Shown: positions 1,058 through 11,178 of the stretch, one piece after another | How the letters are laid out: every line of letters starts with the position of its first letter | Position numbering within the stretch: the first letter of the stretch is position 1 | Translations under genes and position numbers: made by a program | Assembly: GCA_016785955.1 (NCBI GenBank) | Contig: JAEUWH010000008.1 | Span: 1 to 45,701 of the forward strand | DNA length: 45,701 nt | Origin: Pseudobdellovibrionaceae bacterium | Lineage (GTDB): Bacteria; Bdellovibrionota; Bdellovibrionia; Bdellovibrionales; Bdellovibrionaceae | Direction of reading: 5' to 3' | Notes under the pieces: model-generated | The model's database searches: none | The model's input: the letters and a program-made list of their open reading frames with translations, nothing else | What the model was told of the DNA's origin: nothing

Positions 1058-1073
1058 TGACAGTTAAATGACA
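1058..1073 (+). promoter_or_regulatory. candidate hem box (TGACA-N6-TGACA) upstream of hemA
   Basis: TGACA at 1058-1062 and TGACA at 1069-1073 are separated by GTTAAA, so the half-sites start 11 bp apart, about one helical turn. That is the geometry used by OmpR/PhoB-family response regulators. An extended -10-like element TGCTAGATT (1091-1099) lies downstream, so the second half-site sits near the -35 position. This is where an activator would contact RNA polymerase. As recalled, the Leptospira HemR recognition motif has this same form. A cognate OmpR-type regulator is encoded at 5860-6543. Confidence 0.6.
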
Positions 1074-1107
1074 ATTAGGTTGGTTTTTTTTGCTAGATTT
1101 ATCAAAC

Positions 1108-1998
1108 ATGGAACTACATCTGATTCATATTCCTAAAGCGGGCACAGCAAATATGTCACTTACCACCCATATTGGGGGAGTGGCTTTTGAAACGTGTTTG
1201 CGCAAAATAATATTTTTTAATTCGCCGGTGGATAAAGAAAATAGTGATTTTAAAAAATTAAAACACGCGGTTGATTTGGTTGAGACATTTCATTTTGAGC
1301 AAGCCTATCGATTTACGTTAGAAGTTATATGTGGCCTTCACTCGTTGATTAAAGGGGAGACCGAGATTTTTGGCCAATTCAAAGAGTTTGTTGTGAGAAA
1401 TAAAAGTCAAATTGAAGCGCAGGGGTTAATGTCTATTTTTCAGCAAATATTGACGGATTGTAAGGCCTTGAGAAATTCTCGGATTCAGAATTGGGGGCAT
1501 AACACCTATGGATCAGTCACTCGTAAATTGCTTAGGGTAAATGACGGTGTGGTGCTTGTAGGATCTGGGCAGTTGGCGCAGGAGATCGCGCCTTGGTTAA
1601 AGCATGTGTCGAATAAAAAAGTGATTTTGCGTCGACCTCGTGATTTGGAGCCTTCATTCTCGCAGTTTCAAGTTGAGATGGTACATGATCTGACTTTTGC
1701 ATTGGATGCCACGGTTTTAGTAGTCGCCGCCAATATTACGAACGTTGAGTTGGAGAAGCATCTGCGATGTTGGCCTAATATACGTATGGTCATCGATTGG
1801 CGTGGTGATGAACGGTGGATTCAGAAGAAATGCGAAGATGTTTTTCATCTTCATGATTTAAAACGTAATGACGAAAAATCAAAAATAGAGCAAGATCAGC
1901 GCGTTCGAGACGTCAGTGCAGATATTCAAATCAAGGCTCTGGAGTTTATTAAAAAAGCGAAACATAATCCTTGGGGATGGGAAGATTTCTGTGCCTAG
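1108..1998 (+). CDS. hemA: glutamyl-tRNA reductase, short form
   Basis: Predicted to reduce glutamyl-tRNA(Glu) to glutamate-1-semialdehyde, the first step of C5-pathway tetrapyrrole synthesis. Visible motifs are a FETCLRKI segment matching the STCNR catalytic-cysteine region (Cys about residue 30), the conserved block GLHSLIKGETEIFGQFK, and a nucleotide-binding VLVGSGQLAQE loop. The ATG at 1108 is preferred over an in-frame TTG at 1090, though neither has a strong ribosome-binding site. The protein is about 296 residues against roughly 420 for the family. It lacks the C-terminal dimerisation domain, and the usual N-terminal INHKTA-type motif is not recognisable. hemA stands alone about 240 bp upstream of hemC, with a TGACA-N6-TGACA repeat in its promoter. 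The downstream hemL partner supports the assignment. Confidence 0.85.
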   Translation: MELHLIHIPKAGTANMSLTTHIGGVAFETCLRKIIFFNSPVDKENSDFKKLKHAVDLVETFHFEQAYRFTLEVICGLHSLIKGETEIFGQFKEFVVRNKSQIEAQGLMSIFQQILTDCKALRNSRIQNWGHNTYGSVTRKLLRVNDGVVLVGSGQLAQEIAPWLKHVSNKKVILRRPRDLEPSFSQFQVEMVHDLTFALDATVLVVAANITNVELEKHLRCWPNIRMVIDWRGDERWIQKKCEDVFHLHDLKRNDEKSKIEQDQRVRDVSADIQIKALEFIKKAKHNPWGWEDFCA

Positions 1999-2038
1999 TT
2001 TTAAATTTCTAATGAAATCGGTCTGAATGATTTGGTAA

Positions 2039-2213
2039 TGACAGGCTACGGGTTGAGTGAGTGGTCGCAGTGACGGTCATGACTGACATAACAGCCTGAA
2101 TGGGTTGATGATGACAGTTTAGACTTATTTGTAAGTTTATAGGTTTATTAGACGTGTTAGACTTATTGGCGTGTTAGACGGCTTAGACAGCTTAGGTTTA
2201 ATAAAAACTTATT
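2039..2213. promoter_or_regulatory. hemA-hemC intergenic region with clustered TGAC half-sites and TTAGAC repeats
   Basis: TGACA occurs at 2039-2043, 2084-2088 and 2112-2116, with TGACG at 2071 and TGACT at 2080. None forms the exact TGACA-N6-TGACA pair seen upstream of hemA. From about 2120 to 2195 the motif TTAGAC recurs several times, including two copies of GTGTTAGAC. This probably contains a promoter for the hemC-hemH operon, but no clear -35/-10 pair was chosen. Confidence 0.35.
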
Positions 2214-2242
2214 AAGCCGTGCAAAAAGATCAGGGGAAGTTC

Positions 2243-3751
2243 ATGAAATCAACGATACGAATTTCATCGCGAAAAAGTGATTTGGCCCGATTGCAATCGT
2301 ATCTTGTGGGTGAGGCGATTCAAAAACATGTCAAGGGTGTGAAAATAGAGTATCAGTTTCGCGAATCGTTGGGGGATCGAAATCTTGAAAATCCGTTGTG
2401 GAAAATGCCAGAAAAAGGTGTTTTCACGCAGGATTTCAAAGAGGATCTGGTGACCGGAAAGACAGACTTAGTGGTTCATTCTTGGAAGGATTTGCCGATC
2501 GAGGAATCTGGTGTTACATGCGTTGTGGCGTCTCTGCCGCGGGCCGATGAGCGCGATTTGTTTTTATTCAAGAAACAGAGCCGGCCCAGCAAAGGGCAGT
2601 CATTAGCGCTCAAAGTGTTTTCATCGTCCCCTCGGCGTGCGTTCAATTTGGTGCCTTTTTTTCAATGGAGTCTGCCATTTGAAACGACGAGTGTTGAGTT
2701 TTTGCCGGTGCGTGGAAACATTCAAACACGAATCCAAAAGGCAATGGCGACGGATGATGTCCATGGCATTATCATCGCCAAAGCGGCGCTGGATCGTTTG
2801 TTGACGGCTCGTTCAAGCGAGTTTGTGGACACACAAAAATTTTTAAAGAAGGCCTTGGCGCAATTTGAAATTCAGATCATACCCCTTAGTCAAAGTCCTA
2901 CATCGGCGGCTCAAGGCGCATTGGCCATTGAAATTGCCAGTAAAAACAGACGTATAAAAAATATCCTTAAGGCAATAAATGCGACCGAGGATTTTCGGCT
3001 GGTGACCGAAGAGCGTCAGCATTTCAAAAGCTGGGGTGGTGGGTGTCATCAAAAAATGGGTGTGACATTGAAAATGCAATCTGAGCATGTCATGCGGTTT
3101 GAGCGCGGCTTGGATCAAGGTGATAATTTTGTATGGAATCAGGATATTTTACGTGGTCCATTTAAACAATTGCAGAGACCGATCGCGATTGATTCCGTTG
3201 TCGAGACGCACGCTCATTTAGAAAAGCAGATTTTAAATCTGAAACCGTACCGTGCAAAAAAAAACGAAGCTCTGATTATCACCAAGGGTAACCTTTTGCA
3301 TAAAAACAGTGGTCAGCCGACGTGTCTTTGGACGAGCGGTATCGAGACATGGAAGCAGCTGGCGGCGATGGGTTTTTGGGTGACCGGAAGTTATGATTCC
3401 TTGGGCGAGACTCAAAGGCCCGAAATCGATGCTTTGTATGCTCGGAATCTGAAATGGAAAAAACTGACGCATCAGCAGGGGCGAGTCAAGCGCTGGGCTG
3501 CCCTGCAGAAGCTTTACAAAATTCAATATCGAGGATGGGACCAGGTTTATAAATTTAAAAACAAAAAATATTTCTTTTGGAGCCATGGTGAATTGTTTCT
3601 TTCCTGTTGGAAACGGTTTCCCTGGTTGAAGACGAAAACGCATATCTGCGGTTTAGGTAACACGTTAGACATTGTTTCTAAGTATGTGGAACCTAAAAAT
3701 TTAATCACCGTCTATAATTACAAAGATTGGAAAAAAAAATGGACGCAATAA
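2243..3751 (+). CDS. hemC: porphobilinogen deaminase with C-terminal HemD-like extension
   Basis: Residues 1-310 are hydroxymethylbilane synthase, which joins four porphobilinogens. Seen are VVHSWKDLP with the catalytic Asp (about residue 83), [15 protein letters not shown], and GGGCHQKMG with the dipyrromethane-anchoring Cys (about 268). The protein runs to 502 residues against about 310 for the family. The extra 165-190 residues include a WTSGIETW segment, [11 protein letters not shown], and [18 protein letters not shown], which resembles the GpxTaeal signature of uroporphyrinogen-III synthase. No separate hemD is present in the cluster, so a HemC-HemD fusion is inferred. The ATG at 2243 follows AGGGGAAG; a GTG at 2219 in frame is less likely. 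The 3' end overlaps hemL by 13 nt, so the two are translationally coupled. Confidence 0.88.
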
Positions 3752-5031
3752 AATCATCAGCAAAATCATCAGTCGAACTCTTTGAGCGTGCTAAAAAAGT
3801 AGCCCCGGGAGGAGTGCATTCCCCCGTGCGATCGTTTAAAGGTCTTGGTCGCTCACCGGTGTTTTTTTTACGATCCGAAGGTCCCTATTTATGGAGCGTT
3901 GAAGGCGATCGGTATATTGATTTTTGTCAAAGTTTTGGCCCGCTTATTTTAGGGCATCGAGATCCCGAGGTGACAGAGAGAGTCAGGTCTCAGATTGATT
4001 TGGCGTGGACGTTTGGCGCGTGCGAGCCTTATTCTTTAGAGTTGGCCGAGTGGATTACCTCACGCATACCGAGCGTAGAAAAATTACGATTTGTTTCCAG
4101 TGGCACCGAGGCCGTAATGTCGGCGCTGCGATTGGCGCGCGCGTACACGCAGCGAAATAAAATTTTAAAATTCGAAGGGTGTTATCATGGGCATGTGGAT
4201 GGCTTGCTCGTCAAGGCCGGCAGTGGTTTAGCCGGCGAGTCTGCGGCCTCTAGTGCCGGGATCAGCGAGGGGATGGCGCGGGAAACTTTGGTGGTGGATC
4301 TGAATAGTGAAGCGCAGCTGGAAGCGGTATTTAAAACGCATCGGGCGGAAATCGCCGTGGTGGTGATTGAACCATTGCCGGCCAATTATGGTCTTTTAGT
4401 GCAGCGGAAAGAGTTTGTTTTAAAAATTCAGGAGCTAGCCAAACGTCACGGTGCTTTGTTTATGGTGGACGAGGTTATTAGTGGTTTTCGCGTGGGCATT
4501 CAGGGGATGATTCAGGATTTAGGATTAAATCCTGATCTTGTTTGTTATGGAAAAATCTTAGGTGGTGGTTTTCCGGTGGGATGCTATGGTGGGCGCAAAG
4601 AAATTATGGATTTTGTGGCGCCGTTGGGTCCGGTTTATCAAGCGGGAACATTGTCGGCCAATCCAGTCGGTATGGTGGCGGGCCTTGCGACTCTGCAAAA
4701 GATGGAGAGCACACAGGGGTGGGCGGTGCTGAACGCGCGATCGTCCGAATTTTGTGGTCGTCTGAAGGCGTTGTTGAATCAACACTCTGATTTAGATGTC
4801 ACCACATACGCCTCGCTGTTTTGGATTCATACCAAAGCCAGTGAGCCTATTCGGAGTTTGAATCTGATCCCCAAAGGTCAAGGCGAAATATTTAAGTCGA
4901 TGTTTTTAAAACTTTTGGATAAAGGCGTGTATTTGGCGCCGAACGCTTACGAGGTGGGGTTTTTATCTTTGGCCCACACCGATGCAGTGCTAGAGGAAAC
5001 ACTCGGTAAAATCAAAGGTGTGTTGATTTAA
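3739..5031 (+). CDS. hemL: glutamate-1-semialdehyde 2,1-aminomutase
   Basis: PLP enzyme that converts glutamate-1-semialdehyde, the HemA product, to 5-aminolevulinate. The 430-residue length matches the family. Visible are the N-terminal [24 protein letters not shown], the YHGHVDG loop, the [10 protein letters not shown] block that holds the PLP-ring Asp, and [13 protein letters not shown] with the Schiff-base lysine at residue 272. The ATG at 3739 lies inside the end of hemC, a 13-nt overlap. The following kinase gene starts one base after the hemL stop. Having both HemA and HemL shows use of the C5 route rather than ALA synthase. Confidence 0.96.
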
Positions 5032-5032
5032 G

Positions 5033-5863
5033 ATGAAGTGGAAAACGGTTTTTATTCTGGTCTGGGTTTTGTTCACGACGTCGATGATCGGCTGGTGGTG
5101 GTTCTATGGTTTGGATCAGTTGGCCACGCCGTTGGGGCCTGACGAGTATCAACGTCATCGCCGTATGTTGTTCTGGGAAGGATCGTTTTTTTTACTGGCC
5201 CAGGTAACCGGTGGGTTTTTGATGTATTATTTTATGAAGCGCGAGGATGTGAAAAACAAGTCGATCCGTAATTTTTTTGCAGGATTTTCTCATGAGCTCA
5301 AGACTTCAATTTCCCGGTTGCGCTTGCAAGGGGACGTTTTAGCGGAAGACGAGCGATTTAAGAATAACAAGCAAATTGCCCGCTTAGTGAAAAACATTAA
5401 TCAATTGGATTTGCAGTTGGAAAATTCTTTGTGGATGTCGCAGTTGGAAAGCATACAAACCATCAAAGAGAATTTTCTTATTTCCAAAATTATCACCGGC
5501 ATTAAGAACGAGTTCCAAGAAATGACGATTGAACTGAATAAAGATGTTAGCATTGAGACAGATTTTCGGGCATTGCACTTTGTGTTTCGCAACTTGGTTC
5601 AAAATGCGTTGATTCACGGTGGGTCCAGTCGTATCAAAATTCAAATTCAGAGTGCAGGATCGCAGACATTGATAACCGTGGTGGACGATGGTGTGGGCGC
5701 GGTTGAAAAGCTAAAGATTGATGACGTGATACACTTTCGGTTTAACGAAAAAAAGACCTCGGGAATTGGGCTGTATCTGTGTTCTGAAATCATCAAAAAA
5801 CTAAACGGGCGACTCGAATTTTTCAGTCCTGCTCAAGGGTTTGGAGTGAAAATCTACCTATGA
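5033..5863 (+). CDS. membrane sensor histidine kinase embedded in the heme operon (HemK/R-type sensor candidate)
   Basis: A 276-residue sensor kinase. Two membrane segments (about residues 5-25 and 46-67) enclose a periplasmic loop of only about 20 residues, too small for a typical sensing domain. The DHp helix carries FFAGFSHELKTS with phospho-accepting His 87; the proline usual two positions after the Lys/Arg (HELRTP) is Ser-Ile here. The ATPase domain has an N box (FRNLVQNALIHGG), DDGVGA and a G box (TSGIGLYLC). The gene starts one base after hemL and overlaps the regulator by the ATGA tetranucleotide. The fixed position inside the heme operon suggests it senses heme, redox or pathway state, perhaps within the membrane. 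In Leptospira a kinase/regulator pair occupies an equivalent position in the heme cluster (recalled). Confidence 0.88.
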   Translation: MKWKTVFILVWVLFTTSMIGWWWFYGLDQLATPLGPDEYQRHRRMLFWEGSFFLLAQVTGGFLMYYFMKREDVKNKSIRNFFAGFSHELKTSISRLRLQGDVLAEDERFKNNKQIARLVKNINQLDLQLENSLWMSQLESIQTIKENFLISKIITGIKNEFQEMTIELNKDVSIETDFRALHFVFRNLVQNALIHGGSSRIKIQIQSAGSQTLITVVDDGVGAVEKLKIDDVIHFRFNEKKTSGIGLYLCSEIIKKLNGRLEFFSPAQGFGVKIYL

Positions 5864-6543
5864 AAAAGATTTTGATTGTCGAAGATGACCTGACCTTGGG
5901 TGAAACTTTGAAAGAACGTTTAGAGGTTGATTTTGAAGTCAGCTGGGCGGCGACGCAGCATCAGGCGATTAAAAGAATCAAAGAATCTGATTTTGATTTG
6001 ATTATCCTGGATATTGGTTTGCCCGATGGGGATGGTTTTCAGGTAGCGAAAACGGTCAATAAATCCAAAAGTCATATTTTGTTTTTAACGGCGCAAAGTG
6101 ATGCCGAAAGCCGCTTGCAGGGGTACGAGTTAGGGGCGGAAGAGTTCATACCGAAACCTTTTCATCTTAAGGAATTAATGATTCGCATTCGTCATGTTTT
6201 AACGGATCACTCAGTAAAGCCTTACCGATTGAACGTGGATGGGATCGATGTGGATTTTAACCAAATGTCGGTGCGCAAGCGGGACGGGACTTTGGAGTAT
6301 CCGGCACAGTCTGATTTGAAAATTGTCGAGTTCCTGATAAAAAAATCTCCGCAGCCAGTGACACGCGACGAGTTGATGGACTTCGTGTGGGGGCAAGATA
6401 AAAACGTCAATATTCGCAGTATCGATAATGCGATTGTGAGAATTAAGAAATTTTTAGATTTAAACAACGATGATGTCATTAGAAATGTACGAGGTATTGG
6501 TTATCAATGGACCTCCACAGATAGGATTAAAAATGAATATTAA
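5860..6543 (+). CDS. OmpR/PhoB-family response regulator of the heme operon
   Basis: The receiver domain (about 1-118) shows EDD (8-10), phospho-acceptor Asp 51 in LDIGLPDGDG, Thr 77 and Lys 99 in FIPKPF. The C-terminal winged-helix domain (about 128-222) has the OmpR-type ending RSIDNAIVRIKKFL and VIRNVRGIGYQW. It is the partner of the kinase immediately upstream (4-nt ATGA overlap). It ends 11 nt inside hemE, which suggests translational coupling to that gene. PhoB-type regulators bind direct repeats about 11 bp apart, which matches the TGACA repeat at 1058-1073. It is therefore the natural candidate to control hemA and possibly its own operon. Confidence 0.92.
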   Translation: MKKILIVEDDLTLGETLKERLEVDFEVSWAATQHQAIKRIKESDFDLIILDIGLPDGDGFQVAKTVNKSKSHILFLTAQSDAESRLQGYELGAEEFIPKPFHLKELMIRIRHVLTDHSVKPYRLNVDGIDVDFNQMSVRKRDGTLEYPAQSDLKIVEFLIKKSPQPVTRDELMDFVWGQDKNVNIRSIDNAIVRIKKFLDLNNDDVIRNVRGIGYQWTSTDRIKNEY

Positions 6544-7573
6544 TTTTTCGAACGCAATCAATGGAATTGCGCAGCCGGTGCCTCCGATATGGTTTATGCG
6601 ACAAGCGGGGCGGTACCATTCTCATTATCAGAATTTGCGTAAGAAAAACTCGTTTATGGATCTGTGTCGATTGCCAGACTTGGCGGCCGAAGTGGCCATG
6701 GGTCCCATCACGGATTTTGATTTCGACGTAGCCATTATGTTTTCAGATTTATTGTTTCCGCTGCAAGCGTTGGGGTTTGGTTTACAGTACAGCGATGATG
6801 GCCCTAAGTTAGATATTCATTTAACTCCCGAGGTGTTGTCGCGCATGACGCCCTTTGAGGACGCGTGGCCACAGTTGTTGTTTCAAAAACGAGTATTAGA
6901 ACTCACTCGTCGTAAGCTTCCTGAGCATAAATCATTGATTGGATTTGTTGGCGGGCCGTGGACCCTTTTCGTGTATGCGGTCGAAGGATCACACAAGGGA
7001 AGTTTGACGGCGTCTAAGAAATATCTTCCGATATACAATGATTTCTGTAAAGCATTGATCCCACTTTTGAAGAAAAACATAGACCTTCAGCTAGAGGGCG
7101 GTGCGGAAGTGGTTATGATTTTTGATACGGCGGCGGGCGAGATTGATCCGTTGTTGTATTCACAAGTGGTGTTGCCGCAATTATTGGATTTGGCTCATAC
7201 TTATCCCAAGAAGCTAGGGTATTACTCGAAGGGGACGATGGGCGGGTATTTTCCCAAAGATTTCTTTACGGCACCGTGGGCGGGATTAGGTTTTGATCAC
7301 CGCTGGAATTTGCCGTCGTTGTTAAAAAATTTAAATGCTTACAAACATCCATTTTTTGTTCAGGGTAATTTTGATCAGGCGTTGTTGCATCAAGATCCGC
7401 ACGAATTTGAAAAAACCTTAAAGTTTTACATGCAGTCATTCAAAGACATGCCGCCCGAAGAACGCGCGCGGTGGGTGTGTGGCTTAGGCCATGGCGTTTT
7501 ACCGCACACGCCTGAAAAAAATGTGCATACATTTATTGAAATGATCCGCAAGGAGTTTGCAAGTGGTGGCTAG
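6533..7573 (+). CDS. hemE: uroporphyrinogen III decarboxylase
   Basis: Decarboxylates the four acetate side chains of uroporphyrinogen III to give coproporphyrinogen III in the cytoplasm. Diagnostic motifs are PPIWFMRQAGRY near the N-terminus, MFSDLLFPLQALG, GFVGGPWTLFVYAVEG and the C-terminal GLGHGVLPHTP. The length of 346 residues is typical. The frame is open to 6470, but the ATG at 6533 is chosen: it is preceded by AGGA, starts just before the conserved region and overlaps the response-regulator stop by 11 nt. The 3' end overlaps hemN. Confidence 0.95.
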   Translation: MNINFSNAINGIAQPVPPIWFMRQAGRYHSHYQNLRKKNSFMDLCRLPDLAAEVAMGPITDFDFDVAIMFSDLLFPLQALGFGLQYSDDGPKLDIHLTPEVLSRMTPFEDAWPQLLFQKRVLELTRRKLPEHKSLIGFVGGPWTLFVYAVEGSHKGSLTASKKYLPIYNDFCKALIPLLKKNIDLQLEGGAEVVMIFDTAAGEIDPLLYSQVVLPQLLDLAHTYPKKLGYYSKGTMGGYFPKDFFTAPWAGLGFDHRWNLPSLLKNLNAYKHPFFVQGNFDQALLHQDPHEFEKTLKFYMQSFKDMPPEERARWVCGLGHGVLPHTPEKNVHTFIEMIRKEFASGG

Positions 7574-8918
7574 TTTTAAAGAGCTTTACAGGAAATACGA
7601 TATTCCCGCGCCTCGGTACACCAGTTATCCGACGGTGCCCTTTTGGAGCGAGACGCCCACTCCGGCAGACTGGATCCAACATTTGCGTCGTGCTTTAAAG
7701 GGCGACCAGACTAGTTGGGCGCTGTACGTTCATCTGCCGTATTGTGAAACATTGTGTACATTCTGTGGTTGCAATACCTCGATCACGAAAGATCATGCGA
7801 AGGAAAGACCGTATGTGGATCTGGTGATCCGCGAACTTGATTTGTATTTACAAAATGTTCCTGAGCTTAAAACAAAACCGTTGCGGCAAATTCATTTTGG
7901 TGGAGGGTCGCCCACTTTTTTTTCGGCAGAGGCCTTGGGTGTACTTGTGGACGCTATTGACCAGCGGGTGAGGCGTGATTCGCATCACTTTGAGGGGGCG
8001 ATCGAGGTGGATCCGCGACGAACAAAGCATGAACAATTGCAGGCCTTAAAAAGGCGCGGGTTTAACCGTATCAGTTTGGGGGTTCAAGATTTTGATCCCG
8101 AGGTTCAACGTCTGGTGAATCGTATTCAGCCGTTTGAGCAAACGCAGCAAGTGACTCAATGGGCTCGTGATATGGGGTATGAGTCCGTCAATTTTGATTT
8201 AATTTATGGTTTGGCTAAACAAACGCCTGATTCGATCACGCGATCGGCTCAGTTAACGGTGGCTTTAAAACCTGATCGCATTGCTTTATACAGTTTAGCG
8301 ATCGTGCCGTGGATCAAGCCGCAGCAGCGATTATTCAAAGACGAGGATCTTCCCAAGGGGGAAGATAAACGAAAACTGTACGAGATTGCTCGGGCGATAC
8401 TGACGCAAAATGGATACGTGGAAATTGGTATGGATCATTTTGCTTTAAGCACGGATGCCCTGTATGAAAAGACGAAATCAAAACAATTACATCGGAATTT
8501 TATGGGTTATACCGATCAGAAGACGGATGTGTTGCTGGGCTTGGGTGTCAGCAGTATTTCAGAGACCCCAGAGTCATTTCATCAAAATGAAAAGGTGTTA
8601 AACCTGTACGAACAAAAGATATCTAAAAATGAAATTCCCACCCTGCGTGGGCATGTGCTGACTGATGAAGATAAAACGCAAAGATGGAAAATCCTTAAAT
8701 TTATGACTCAATTCGAAGTGCTCTTGTCGGCGGAAGAAAAAACAGCCGCAGAGATTTTTTTAAAAGAAATGATTTTGGATGGGTTGGTAGAGATTCAAGG
8801 TTCCACGCTGAAATTGACTGATCTGGGTCGGCCTTTTTTAAGGAATGCCGCGGTGTTTTTTGATTCTCGGCTTCAAAAATCGCAGCCGCAAACACGGATT
8901 TTTTCGCAGTCGATATGA
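7563..8918 (+). CDS. hemN: oxygen-independent coproporphyrinogen III oxidase (radical SAM)
   Basis: Radical-SAM enzyme that decarboxylates coproporphyrinogen III to protoporphyrinogen IX without oxygen. The HemN type is shown by PAPRYTSYPTVPFW at the N-terminus and the cluster motif CETLCTFCGC (Cys 61, 65, 68 and 70, i.e. CX3CX2CXC). HFGGGSPTFF, the SLGVQDFDPEVQ block and NFDLIYGLAKQT also support it. About 451 residues, the usual size. The chosen GTG at 7563 sits 7 bases after AAGGAG and overlaps hemE; an adjacent GTG at 7566 and a TTG at 7557 are alternatives. The stop overlaps the next start as ATGA. Confidence 0.95.
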   Translation: MVASFKELYRKYDIPAPRYTSYPTVPFWSETPTPADWIQHLRRALKGDQTSWALYVHLPYCETLCTFCGCNTSITKDHAKERPYVDLVIRELDLYLQNVPELKTKPLRQIHFGGGSPTFFSAEALGVLVDAIDQRVRRDSHHFEGAIEVDPRRTKHEQLQALKRRGFNRISLGVQDFDPEVQRLVNRIQPFEQTQQVTQWARDMGYESVNFDLIYGLAKQTPDSITRSAQLTVALKPDRIALYSLAIVPWIKPQQRLFKDEDLPKGEDKRKLYEIARAILTQNGYVEIGMDHFALSTDALYEKTKSKQLHRNFMGYTDQKTDVLLGLGVSSISETPESFHQNEKVLNLYEQKISKNEIPTLRGHVLTDEDKTQRWKILKFMTQFEVLLSAEEKTAAEIFLKEMILDGLVEIQGSTLKLTDLGRPFLRNAAVFFDSRLQKSQPQTRIFSQSI

Positions 8919-10159
8919 TTCGTATTATTGGAGCGGGATTTTCAGGTTTATCGCTGGCGTATCATTTTGTGAAACGAGGCTATGCCGTCACGTTGATTGA
9001 AAAATCGAATCGAGTGGGCGGCGTGATTCAATCTTCGCGGCAGAATCAAATGTTGGTCGAATCGGCGGCCAATGGATTTTTAGCGTCCGAGAAAATAGAA
9101 GAATTATTTGCAGACATCGGGGTGAAACCTCTGGAAACTCGCACGGAATCAAGAAAAAAGTATATATTTCGAGGGCGTCTTCGGCGCTGGCCTTTAAGTT
9201 TTTCCGAAACGATCATTTTAATCGGACGATTGGCGTGGGCGGTGGTGACGGGACGTCGAAAACCCCAGGCATACGAGACGCTGCACGCGTGGGCACAGCG
9301 AGTTCTTGGTAATGCGGGAGATGTATACCTTATTCAGCCGATGGTGAATGGTATCTTTGCCGAAAAAACAAATCTATTGAATGCTCAGCTTGTGCTGGGA
9401 GCCTTGTTTTATAAGAAGAAGAAAAAATCCAAGCGAGGGTTACTCAGCGCGGCCGGTGGTATGGATGAAGTCATGCAAAAAATAAAAGACTACCTTGTAA
9501 GCCATAACGTACGCATCGAGTTTGAAAAAGATCCCTTTTTAGACGAGTCGATTTTGCAACATAATACTTTTTTAGCAACAAACTTTCAAACCGCTTATTC
9601 TGTTCTCTGTCATTCCAGTTTATTAAATACAGTCTCTAAAACAGATGGATTGAGATCGTTATCTTTGGTGCGGGTGACATTAAACTTTAAAAAAGTGACG
9701 GACGAGATTGACGGGTTTGGAGTTTTATTTCCCAATGTAGAAAATTTTAATGCGATTGGGGTGCTGGCCAACACCAAGATTTTCGAGCATCGAGGCGAGT
9801 ACAACGAAAGCTGGATTTTTTCAAATTCAACCCAGCCTCATTTGTTGAGCTGGTCAGATGAGCAAATCAAAGACAAGATCAGTCTCGATCGACAACGATT
9901 GTTTAAATCTGTCTTTGAGATCAAGGATATGACTGTTCATCGCTGGCCCGACGTTATCCCCAGTTACAATCATGATTTGAAGCAGTTTCTGGATGAACAC
10001 TCGTCGTTAACTCAAAACATTACGGGAAATTTTTTGGGGGTTTTGGGATTGACGGGTATTCACGAGCGCAATGCGGCGTTGGTGGAAAAATACATGAGGA
10101 CCGAAAAAGCATCCGGGCTTCAAAGCGCCCATCCAGAAAAAAATCGAGAAAAAATATGA
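8915..10159 (+). CDS. hemG: FAD-dependent protoporphyrinogen oxidase (HemG/HemY class)
   Basis: Oxidises protoporphyrinogen IX to protoporphyrin IX. The N-terminus has the dinucleotide-binding fold IIGAGFSGLSLAYHF followed by the acidic end LIEKSNRVGGVI, as in the PPOX/monoamine-oxidase superfamily. Further PPOX-like blocks are FRGRLRRWPLS, PMVNGIFAEKTNLLNAQ and GGMDEVMQKI. The length of 414 residues is slightly short for the family (about 450-470), with a charged tail. It overlaps hemN and hemH by ATGA at each end, so its place between HemN and HemH in the pathway is mirrored in the operon. The flavin enzyme is usually called HemY or HemG depending on the naming school. The usual FAD-type PPOX uses oxygen, while HemN upstream does not. 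Confidence 0.88.
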   Translation: MIRIIGAGFSGLSLAYHFVKRGYAVTLIEKSNRVGGVIQSSRQNQMLVESAANGFLASEKIEELFADIGVKPLETRTESRKKYIFRGRLRRWPLSFSETIILIGRLAWAVVTGRRKPQAYETLHAWAQRVLGNAGDVYLIQPMVNGIFAEKTNLLNAQLVLGALFYKKKKKSKRGLLSAAGGMDEVMQKIKDYLVSHNVRIEFEKDPFLDESILQHNTFLATNFQTAYSVLCHSSLLNTVSKTDGLRSLSLVRVTLNFKKVTDEIDGFGVLFPNVENFNAIGVLANTKIFEHRGEYNESWIFSNSTQPHLLSWSDEQIKDKISLDRQRLFKSVFEIKDMTVHRWPDVIPSYNHDLKQFLDEHSSLTQNITGNFLGVLGLTGIHERNAALVEKYMRTEKASGLQSAHPEKNREKI

Positions 10160-11178
10160 AAAAGGCAGTGATTCTGAATAACATCGGGTCTCCCGATGGT
10201 CCAGACACTCGATCGGTGCGGGTTTATCTTCGAGAGTTTCTTATGGACCCTGGGGTGATCGAACTTCCTTATGTGTTCCGGTTTATATTAGTTTATTTGA
10301 TCATCACGCCTTTTCGGGCAGCGAAATCTGCAGAAAAATATAAAAAAATATGGCAGCCGCAGGGATCGCCATTGGTTTCCATGACTCGGTCTATAGCTCA
10401 AAAAATGCGGGCGGCCTGTGATACGATTGCGGTGGAGACGGGGATGATTTTTCAAAATCCGTCAATTAAAACTGCCATTCAAAAACTGTTGGACGAAAAC
10501 CCAGATCTGGAAAAATTATATTTTATTCCCATGTATCCGCAGTTTTCTGCGGCCACGACCGAAGCCAGTCTTAAAAAATTTCGTGAAATTTGGAACAGAT
10601 ACTTTCATCATTATAAATCCATTCAGTTGTACGCGATGAGGCCGTTTTATGACTGTGATTTTTTTATCAATCCCTATGTTGAAAAAATTAAAAAACAAGA
10701 TTTAACCCGCTACGATGCCATTTTGTTTTCTTATCATGGGTTGCCGCAAAAGGCGATTCTCAAGAATCCGCACTGCCAATTGAATAACCATTGCTGCGAT
10801 CAGGGGCTGAAGAATAATTGTTATCGCAGCCAATGTATGGCTACGACTCGCGCCATTTTAAAGGCTCTAGACACAGGCCTTGCGGCGCACACAACCTTTC
10901 AATCTCGCTTGGGTCGGGGCGAGTGGATTCGGCCTTACACCGATGAGAAAATCATTGAATTGGTACACGCCGGAGTAAAACGAATTTTGGTGTTAAGCCC
11001 GGCATTCACCGTGGATTGTCTAGAGACTTTAGAGGAAATTCAGATCGAACTCCGGGGGCTTTTTTTGACCCACGGGGGAGAGGTGTTTGATTATGTACCA
11101 TGTTTGAACGATGACAGTTCCTGGTGTCGGGATTTATCTTTATTGGTAGAGTCGGAAAAACATTTCGATCGACTATAG
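10156..11178 (+). CDS. hemH: ferrochelatase with internal cysteine cluster
   Basis: Inserts Fe2+ into protoporphyrin IX, the last step of the cluster. Seen are the N-terminal LNNIGSPDGPDTRSVRVYLREFLMD, active-site His 194 in SYHGLPQ, and Glu 290 in VDCLETLEEI. Between residues 207 and 227 there are five cysteines (207, 213, 214, 222, 227) in NPHC...NHCC...NNCYRSQC. Some bacterial ferrochelatases hold a [2Fe-2S] cluster through cysteines in this internal region, so a cluster is plausible. The 340-residue length is normal. It is the last gene of the overlapping hem operon; the next gene begins 95 bp later. Confidence 0.95.
   Translation: MKKAVILNNIGSPDGPDTRSVRVYLREFLMDPGVIELPYVFRFILVYLIITPFRAAKSAEKYKKIWQPQGSPLVSMTRSIAQKMRAACDTIAVETGMIFQNPSIKTAIQKLLDENPDLEKLYFIPMYPQFSAATTEASLKKFREIWNRYFHHYKSIQLYAMRPFYDCDFFINPYVEKIKKQDLTRYDAILFSYHGLPQKAILKNPHCQLNNHCCDQGLKNNCYRSQCMATTRAILKALDTGLAAHTTFQSRLGRGEWIRPYTDEKIIELVHAGVKRILVLSPAFTVDCLETLEEIQIELRGLFLTHGGEVFDYVPCLNDDSSWCRDLSLLVESEKHFDRL

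Follow-up and report, generated by a model that had tools for sequence, protein, structure and literature searches.

A histidine kinase and a response regulator encoded inside the heme biosynthesis operon of a Pseudobdellovibrionaceae bacterium are, as judged from their sequences, orthologs of the Leptospira HemK/HemR two-component system, and a predicted HemR operator with a -10 element lies directly before hemA. We propose that HemKR in the Bdellovibrionota is an autogenous thermostat for heme synthesis that acts via the hemA promoter, and we put the probability of this reading at about 0.85.

The window (the whole 45,701-nucleotide stretch analyzed here) is contig C94 of a 4.34-Mb draft genome. 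Open reading frames and Pfam/NCBIfam matches outline a heme cluster that runs in one direction from approximately 1108 to 11178 and contains hemA, hemCD, hemL, kinase, regulator, hemE, hemN, protoporphyrinogen oxidase, and hemH genes. The features discussed below are as follows.

1058..1073, + strand: hem-box TGACAGTTAAATGACA, where the phosphorylated regulator is predicted to bind, identified with the published Leptospira HemR motif
1094..1099, + strand: predicted -10 element TAGATT, 20 bases after the box
1108..1998, + strand: hemA, short glutamyl-tRNA reductase (Pfam GlutR_N; probable start ATG 1108, first ORF start TTG 1090)
2219..3751, + strand: hemC fused to a hemD-like part (HemCD; Pfam Porphobil_deam and alignment with Leptospira HemC/HemD)
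3727..5031, + strand: hemL, glutamate-1-semialdehyde aminomutase (NCBIfam PRK00062, 520.9 bits; 61% to L. interrogans)
5033..5863, + strand: HemK-type histidine kinase (Pfam HisKA and HATPase_c; reciprocal best hit)
5860..6543, + strand: HemR-type OmpR/PhoB response regulator (Pfam Response_reg and Trans_reg_C; PDB match; tree)
6533..7573, + strand: hemE, uroporphyrinogen decarboxylase (Pfam URO-D; 52% to L. interrogans)
7557..8918, + strand: hemN, oxygen-independent coproporphyrinogen III oxidase (TIGR00538 above cut-off)
8915..10159, + strand: hemG/hemY-type protoporphyrinogen oxidase (TIGR00562 above cut-off)
10156..11178, + strand: hemH, ferrochelatase (TIGR00109 above cut-off)

An earlier, sequence-only reading of this DNA had placed the two regulatory genes between hemL and hemE, and the ORF coordinates agree with it: a 1-nt gap separates hemL from the kinase gene, kinase and regulator genes overlap by 4 nt (ATGA), and regulator and hemE overlap by 11 nt. 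Judged from the overlaps, translational coupling of kinase and regulator to the enzymes is plausible. The gene order given in that reading stood when the hem genes were checked with Pfam and NCBIfam, with the refinement that its "hemC" encodes a HemCD-like protein of 510 amino acids, residues 9 to 504 of which align with the bifunctional HemC/HemD of Leptospira (36%). hemB lies outside the cluster, on another contig (G000:C28). The hemA product is unusually short and divergent (approximately 297 amino acids, GlutR_N only, far under the cut-off of the NCBIfam hemA model). It has 32% identity over 192 amino acids to the 289-amino-acid protein found at the same place in L. interrogans, a counterpart that is annotated as a "hypothetical protein."

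The kinase is 29.5% identical to the L. interrogans HK (E value of 5e-37), and the regulator, with D51 as the phospho-acceptor, is 46% identical to the L. interrogans RR. When the L. interrogans proteins were searched back against the window genome, the kinase was recovered with an E value of 5.9e-33 (next own kinase, 3.2e-10) and the regulator with an E value of 1.2e-57 (next own regulator, 7.0e-29), so that the window proteins and Leptospira HemK/HemR are reciprocal best hits, well separated from the next candidates. The top PDB match of the regulator is 4q7e (E value of 6e-34, the next being 7e-26), which we take to be the Leptospira HemR receiver. The regulator's two top hits in a plasmid collection come from L. 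interrogans, where they lie beside hemE (46%), while the others listed are at approximately 34% or less; hemE in the same collection is at 52% to L. interrogans versus approximately 30% to the hemE of other groups. A tree of 80 regulator sequences separates 60 hem-linked or HemR-like proteins, Leptospira HemR included, from 20 paralogs of the window genome and its relatives with 98% SH-aLRT support, and the regulator does not cluster with unrelated local families. Residue N190 of the recognition helix is found in 100% of the hem-linked regulators and in 0% of the 20 paralogs, which makes it a possible reason for the common operator.

The parallel with the Leptospira heme cluster drawn in the earlier reading is seen directly in the L. 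interrogans locus, which reads hemA, hemCD, hemB, hemL, kinase, regulator, hemE, hemN, DUF5683, and hemG, with hemH inverted. There too the pair sits between hemL and hemE, and the kinase/regulator and regulator/hemE overlaps are 4 nt (ATGA) and 11 nt, as in the window. The Leptospira proteins (Hklep/Rrlep, LB014-LB015; PMC2266917, PMC11426443) and the window proteins form a common orthologous pair with an H+4 threonine and a short periplasmic loop, and the operator TGACA-N6-TGACA precedes hemA in both. In contrast to Leptospira, the window operon has no hemB between hemCD and hemL, keeps hemH within the operon, encodes a loop of approximately 20 rather than 32 residues, and apparently has one target site instead of several. 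It also has no hmuO repression arm, because no match to the heme oxygenase family (PF01126) was found in the window genome; two of 30 relatives have one. Repression of hmuO (heme oxygenase) is a part of the Leptospira regulon and does not define HemKR. Placement of kinase and regulator inside the operon is the arrangement of pathogenic Leptospira and of the window and is absent in L. biflexa. Bdellovibrio bacteriovorus shows the same family and linkage, and the kdesi contig (L122) has the pair between hemL and hemE; the window organism differs from B. bacteriovorus in being of another genus, apparently in the same family, and in that hemB is not beside hemA. Reciprocal best hits, the regulator tree, gene order with its overlaps, and the HemR operator before hemA all favor the HemKR identity that had been suggested for the pair.

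TGACA-N6-TGACA is the site bound by Leptospira HemR (PMC11426443), and the window contains a single exact copy of it, at 1058-1073, right before hemA. In hemA upstream regions of Bdellovibrionota, Leptospiraceae, and Acidobacteriota, the box is exact in 57/67 and has one mismatch in 7/67, counting loci with a recognizable hemA and boxes on the coding strand near the start; because some contigs are represented twice among the 67 loci, there are somewhat fewer independent cases (50 distinct regions). No box was seen at three loci (L086, L109, and L121), and at least L086 is truncated at its end. Thirty sets of shuffled hemA upstream regions contained 0 boxes. Alignment of the 50 distinct upstream regions on the box places TANNNT at +37 to +42 from the box start (T 0.84, A 0.92, T 0.78), and the start codon follows 5 to 11 nt past this -10 element in 54 of 64 loci (8 nt in the window). 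With such spacing, the hemA mRNA probably has little or no leader, and the conservation of the spacing points to ATG 1108 as the hemA start in the window. Translation most likely begins there and not at TTG 1090, which would fall within the promoter.

Box and -10 element (TANNNT) together occur once in the 4.3-Mb genome (0 in the reversed control). The bare ten-base motif has 13 exact copies genome-wide, approximately the number expected by chance. A wider regulon in the window's own genome was rejected because these 13 bare boxes are indistinguishable from chance, and no obvious heme gene lies beside them, judging from the starts of translations. hemB was likewise discarded as a second target in the window genus, with no box at up to one mismatch in six genomes. 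A stricter, extended box matches in 17 of 40 relatives, mostly once and at hemA, and has no match in the hemE-less members of this set. A consensus promoter scan did not hit the hemA promoter and gave counts near those of shuffles. The single genomic copy of the combined box and -10 element, together with the lack of any match to the heme oxygenase family, makes hemA probably the only promoter that the circuit targets in the window genome.

PhoB-type regulators and their Pho boxes resemble the window system in OmpR/PhoB architecture and in having direct repeats that are spaced at 11-bp intervals and overlap the -35 region; they differ from it in repeat sequence, target genes, and kinase type. 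Because the hem-box stands at the -35 position, the phosphorylated regulator could mainly repress hemA. We consider this improbable: the 20 bp between the box and the -10 element leave no good -35 hexamer at normal spacing, as would be expected if the promoter were activated in a PhoB-like manner, and HemR activates hemA in Leptospira (PMC11426443).

The regulator match adjoins hemE in 46 of 49 hemE-bearing relatives, an arrangement far beyond chance. A signature taken from the regulators alone (E[FY]IPKPFH[LF][KR]E, searched as a DNA pattern in a collection of 84,980 species) matched 72 stretches, nearly all from Bdellovibrionota or Leptospiraceae and five from Acidobacteriota metagenome assemblies. 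Nearly all matches, including four of the five in Acidobacteriota, have hem genes within a few kilobases. No hem genes are visible at L098, L102, L103, L117, and L139, partly due to locus ends, and the HemK/R-like pairs of L102 and L103 have no hem gene within the 8 kb examined. Other families of the same order, with hemE approximately 30% identical, have the same gene order, and the box is present in all six loci with a visible hemA (four exact, two with one mismatch). A kinase profile matched 148 of 192 Bdellovibrionota genomes (77 of 114 genera), and the sampled profile loci contain the operon in 19/19 cases and the box at hemA in 14/19, 11 of them exact, with one more upstream region cut off. 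Conservation of gene order across the Bdellovibrionota, which the sequence-only reading had put forward as a check, is borne out by these counts.

Losses were found as well. Four loci of the Bdellovibrionota family f17 (L229, L230, L237, and L242) retain kinase and regulator in the operon and have no box upstream of hemA; their operator may have changed, perhaps together with the regulator. In G042 (L191, L244), the pair is lost, hemA has no box upstream, and the operon is split, with hemA-hemCD apart from hemB-hemL-hemE-hemN. Judged from this gene content, G042 is a natural control for the association of pair and box. All 11 relatives that lack hemE also lack the kinase (G008, G009, G014, G015, G016, G019, G020, G022, G027, G031, and G036). 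Several of these genomes are nearly complete, and the organisms may rely on external heme, e.g., from prey. At L046 (G004:C46), hemE is in two pieces, because of either misassembly of this draft genome or disruption of the gene.

Two-component genes often adjoin unrelated genes, and the window genome has 47 regulator matches, so an unrelated system might have come to sit in the operon by chance and been carried along. Such hitchhiking is hard to reconcile with a pair that is retained with the operon across the phylum, forms a single clade, and has a known operator before hemA. On the strength of the regulator tree and the conserved operator we rejected it, as far as sequence goes, and regard it as barely credible.

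The description of the two proteins as a membrane histidine kinase and an OmpR-type regulator is backed by Pfam domains, hydropathy, and a two-helix hairpin. In the kinase, HATPase_c accompanies a HisKA match slightly below the Pfam cut-off (E value of 3e-5). Pfam, hydropathy, and an AF2 model describe two membrane helices with a short loop, HisKA and HATPase domains, and no cytoplasmic sensory domain, i.e., a membrane hairpin, a DHp domain with H87/T91, and an ATPase domain, with no HAMP domain seen. The model, whose mean pLDDT of 79.7 makes details tentative, has a helix at 2-29, a short turn, and a continuous helix at 36-105 that runs into the phospho-acceptor region without a HAMP domain. 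H87 and T91 (the H+4 threonine) and regulator residue D51 correspond to H98, T102, and D53 of L. biflexa.

Alignment of 53 kinases identified W21, M45, E49, F81, H87, T91, and Q128 as invariant, along with D177, N187, N191, H195, G220, G244, and G246. W21, M45, and E49 are the invariants within the membrane hairpin, and W22, G50, G60, and G61 are nearly invariant. This suggests a hairpin motif in which helix 1 has WW close to its outer end and helix 2 has M-x3-E-G at its start. Neither the length nor the sequence of the periplasmic loop is constant among the kinases; in the window, the loop has approximately 20 residues. A conserved hairpin with a variable loop agrees with results for the L. 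biflexa kinase, in which the loop is replaceable and the membrane part is required (PMC2266917). We infer that signal sensing takes place in the membrane hairpin; an intramembrane or cytoplasmic signal had been suspected from the short loop, and conservation of the hairpin residues supports the intramembrane option.

In the thermostat that we propose, low heme or porphyrin supply would lead the kinase to phosphorylate the regulator on D51. A dimer of the phosphorylated regulator would bind the two 11-bp direct repeats overlapping the -35 region and recruit RNA polymerase in a PhoB-like manner, turning on hemA and the whole operon, the kinase and regulator genes included. As heme precursors accumulate, the hairpin (W21, W22, M45, E49, G50) would change state, and the kinase would then act as a phosphatase (T91) and switch the operon off, like the effect of ALA in L. 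biflexa. Kinase and regulator mutants of L. biflexa require heme or ALA, with hemAEL down 2- to 10-fold (PMC2266917), and ALA turns HemK into a phosphatase (Imelio 2024; PMC11426443). Activation of hemA by the regulator may be conditional, because an L. biflexa double mutant still makes heme with hemA little changed (PMC11426443). Other points weigh against the thermostat, namely, the boxless hemA loci of f17, kinase identity of only approximately 30%, the chance-level frequency of the bare motif, and the HemK/R-like pairs of L102 and L103 without a nearby hem gene.

The HemKR orthologs might instead sense the oxygen, redox, or quinone state of the membrane and match heme to respiration, with precursors not the direct cue. 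The membrane hairpin that serves as their sensor stands alone, has conserved W, M, E, and G residues, and lacks a known ligand-binding domain. For the direct ligand of HemK in Leptospira, too, there are two candidates, ALA and a downstream porphyrin (PMC11426443). We nevertheless find this alternative rather unlikely, since operator, target, and motif are common with Leptospira, where ALA works through HemK (PMC11426443).

In both the regulator tree and a four-protein tree, the Leptospira and Acidobacteriota operons nest among those of the Bdellovibrionota. This suggests transfer of the whole operon as a unit between phyla, in one direction or the other, but a single Bdellovibrionota clade was not rejected in an AU test (P = 0.258). 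In its widest form, our proposal would make HemKR a multi-phylum, single-promoter thermostat with a signal read by the hairpin motif, possibly through direct contact with heme or porphyrin, and with operon, regulator, and operator moved between phyla as one unit; we advance this form tentatively, as possible but short of probable.

To our knowledge, dedicated two-component control of heme synthesis in Gram-negative bacteria has been described essentially from Leptospira. HssRS-like heme-responsive systems of Gram-positive bacteria likewise represent two-component control related to heme. Unlike the window pair, with which they are compared here by role and not by sequence, they respond to heme toxicity and drive efflux. 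The claim that a spirochete system extends to another phylum proved true, and its novelty was partly anticipated by Louvel et al. 2008 (PMC2266917), who described the Leptospira pair and where it sits in the L. interrogans operon. The same paper also mentions, in one clause and with data not shown, linkage of the pair to heme genes in B. bacteriovorus. HemKR itself is therefore not new, and the present case is an extension of a known system. The conserved operator, the breadth, and the membrane motif outside Leptospira appear to be new: we found no report of them beyond Leptospira in the open literature, most subscription papers being outside its scope.

From these results, a Leptospira-type circuit and operator appear to be in use in most of the Bdellovibrionota, a phylum with many predatory bacteria, and the heme control circuit of one spirochete group appears to be common to distant bacterial phyla. 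The common operator, fixed promoter layout, and natural losses permit simple target prediction, and a handful of invariant membrane residues makes the question of the HemK signal approachable.

Two minor observations concern neighboring sequence and database labels. An ORF at 49-555 of the window, without a Pfam match and perhaps a remnant, contains NHVHLLVKAKSRLGMQNFFRVFAGHLAQEI, a stretch that presumably recalls REP-associated/IS200-type transposases. The contig CALQIT020000035.1 (L115) is labeled Streptomyces griseus, but its content is that of G024:C35, from the family of the window organism, and the label is probably wrong.
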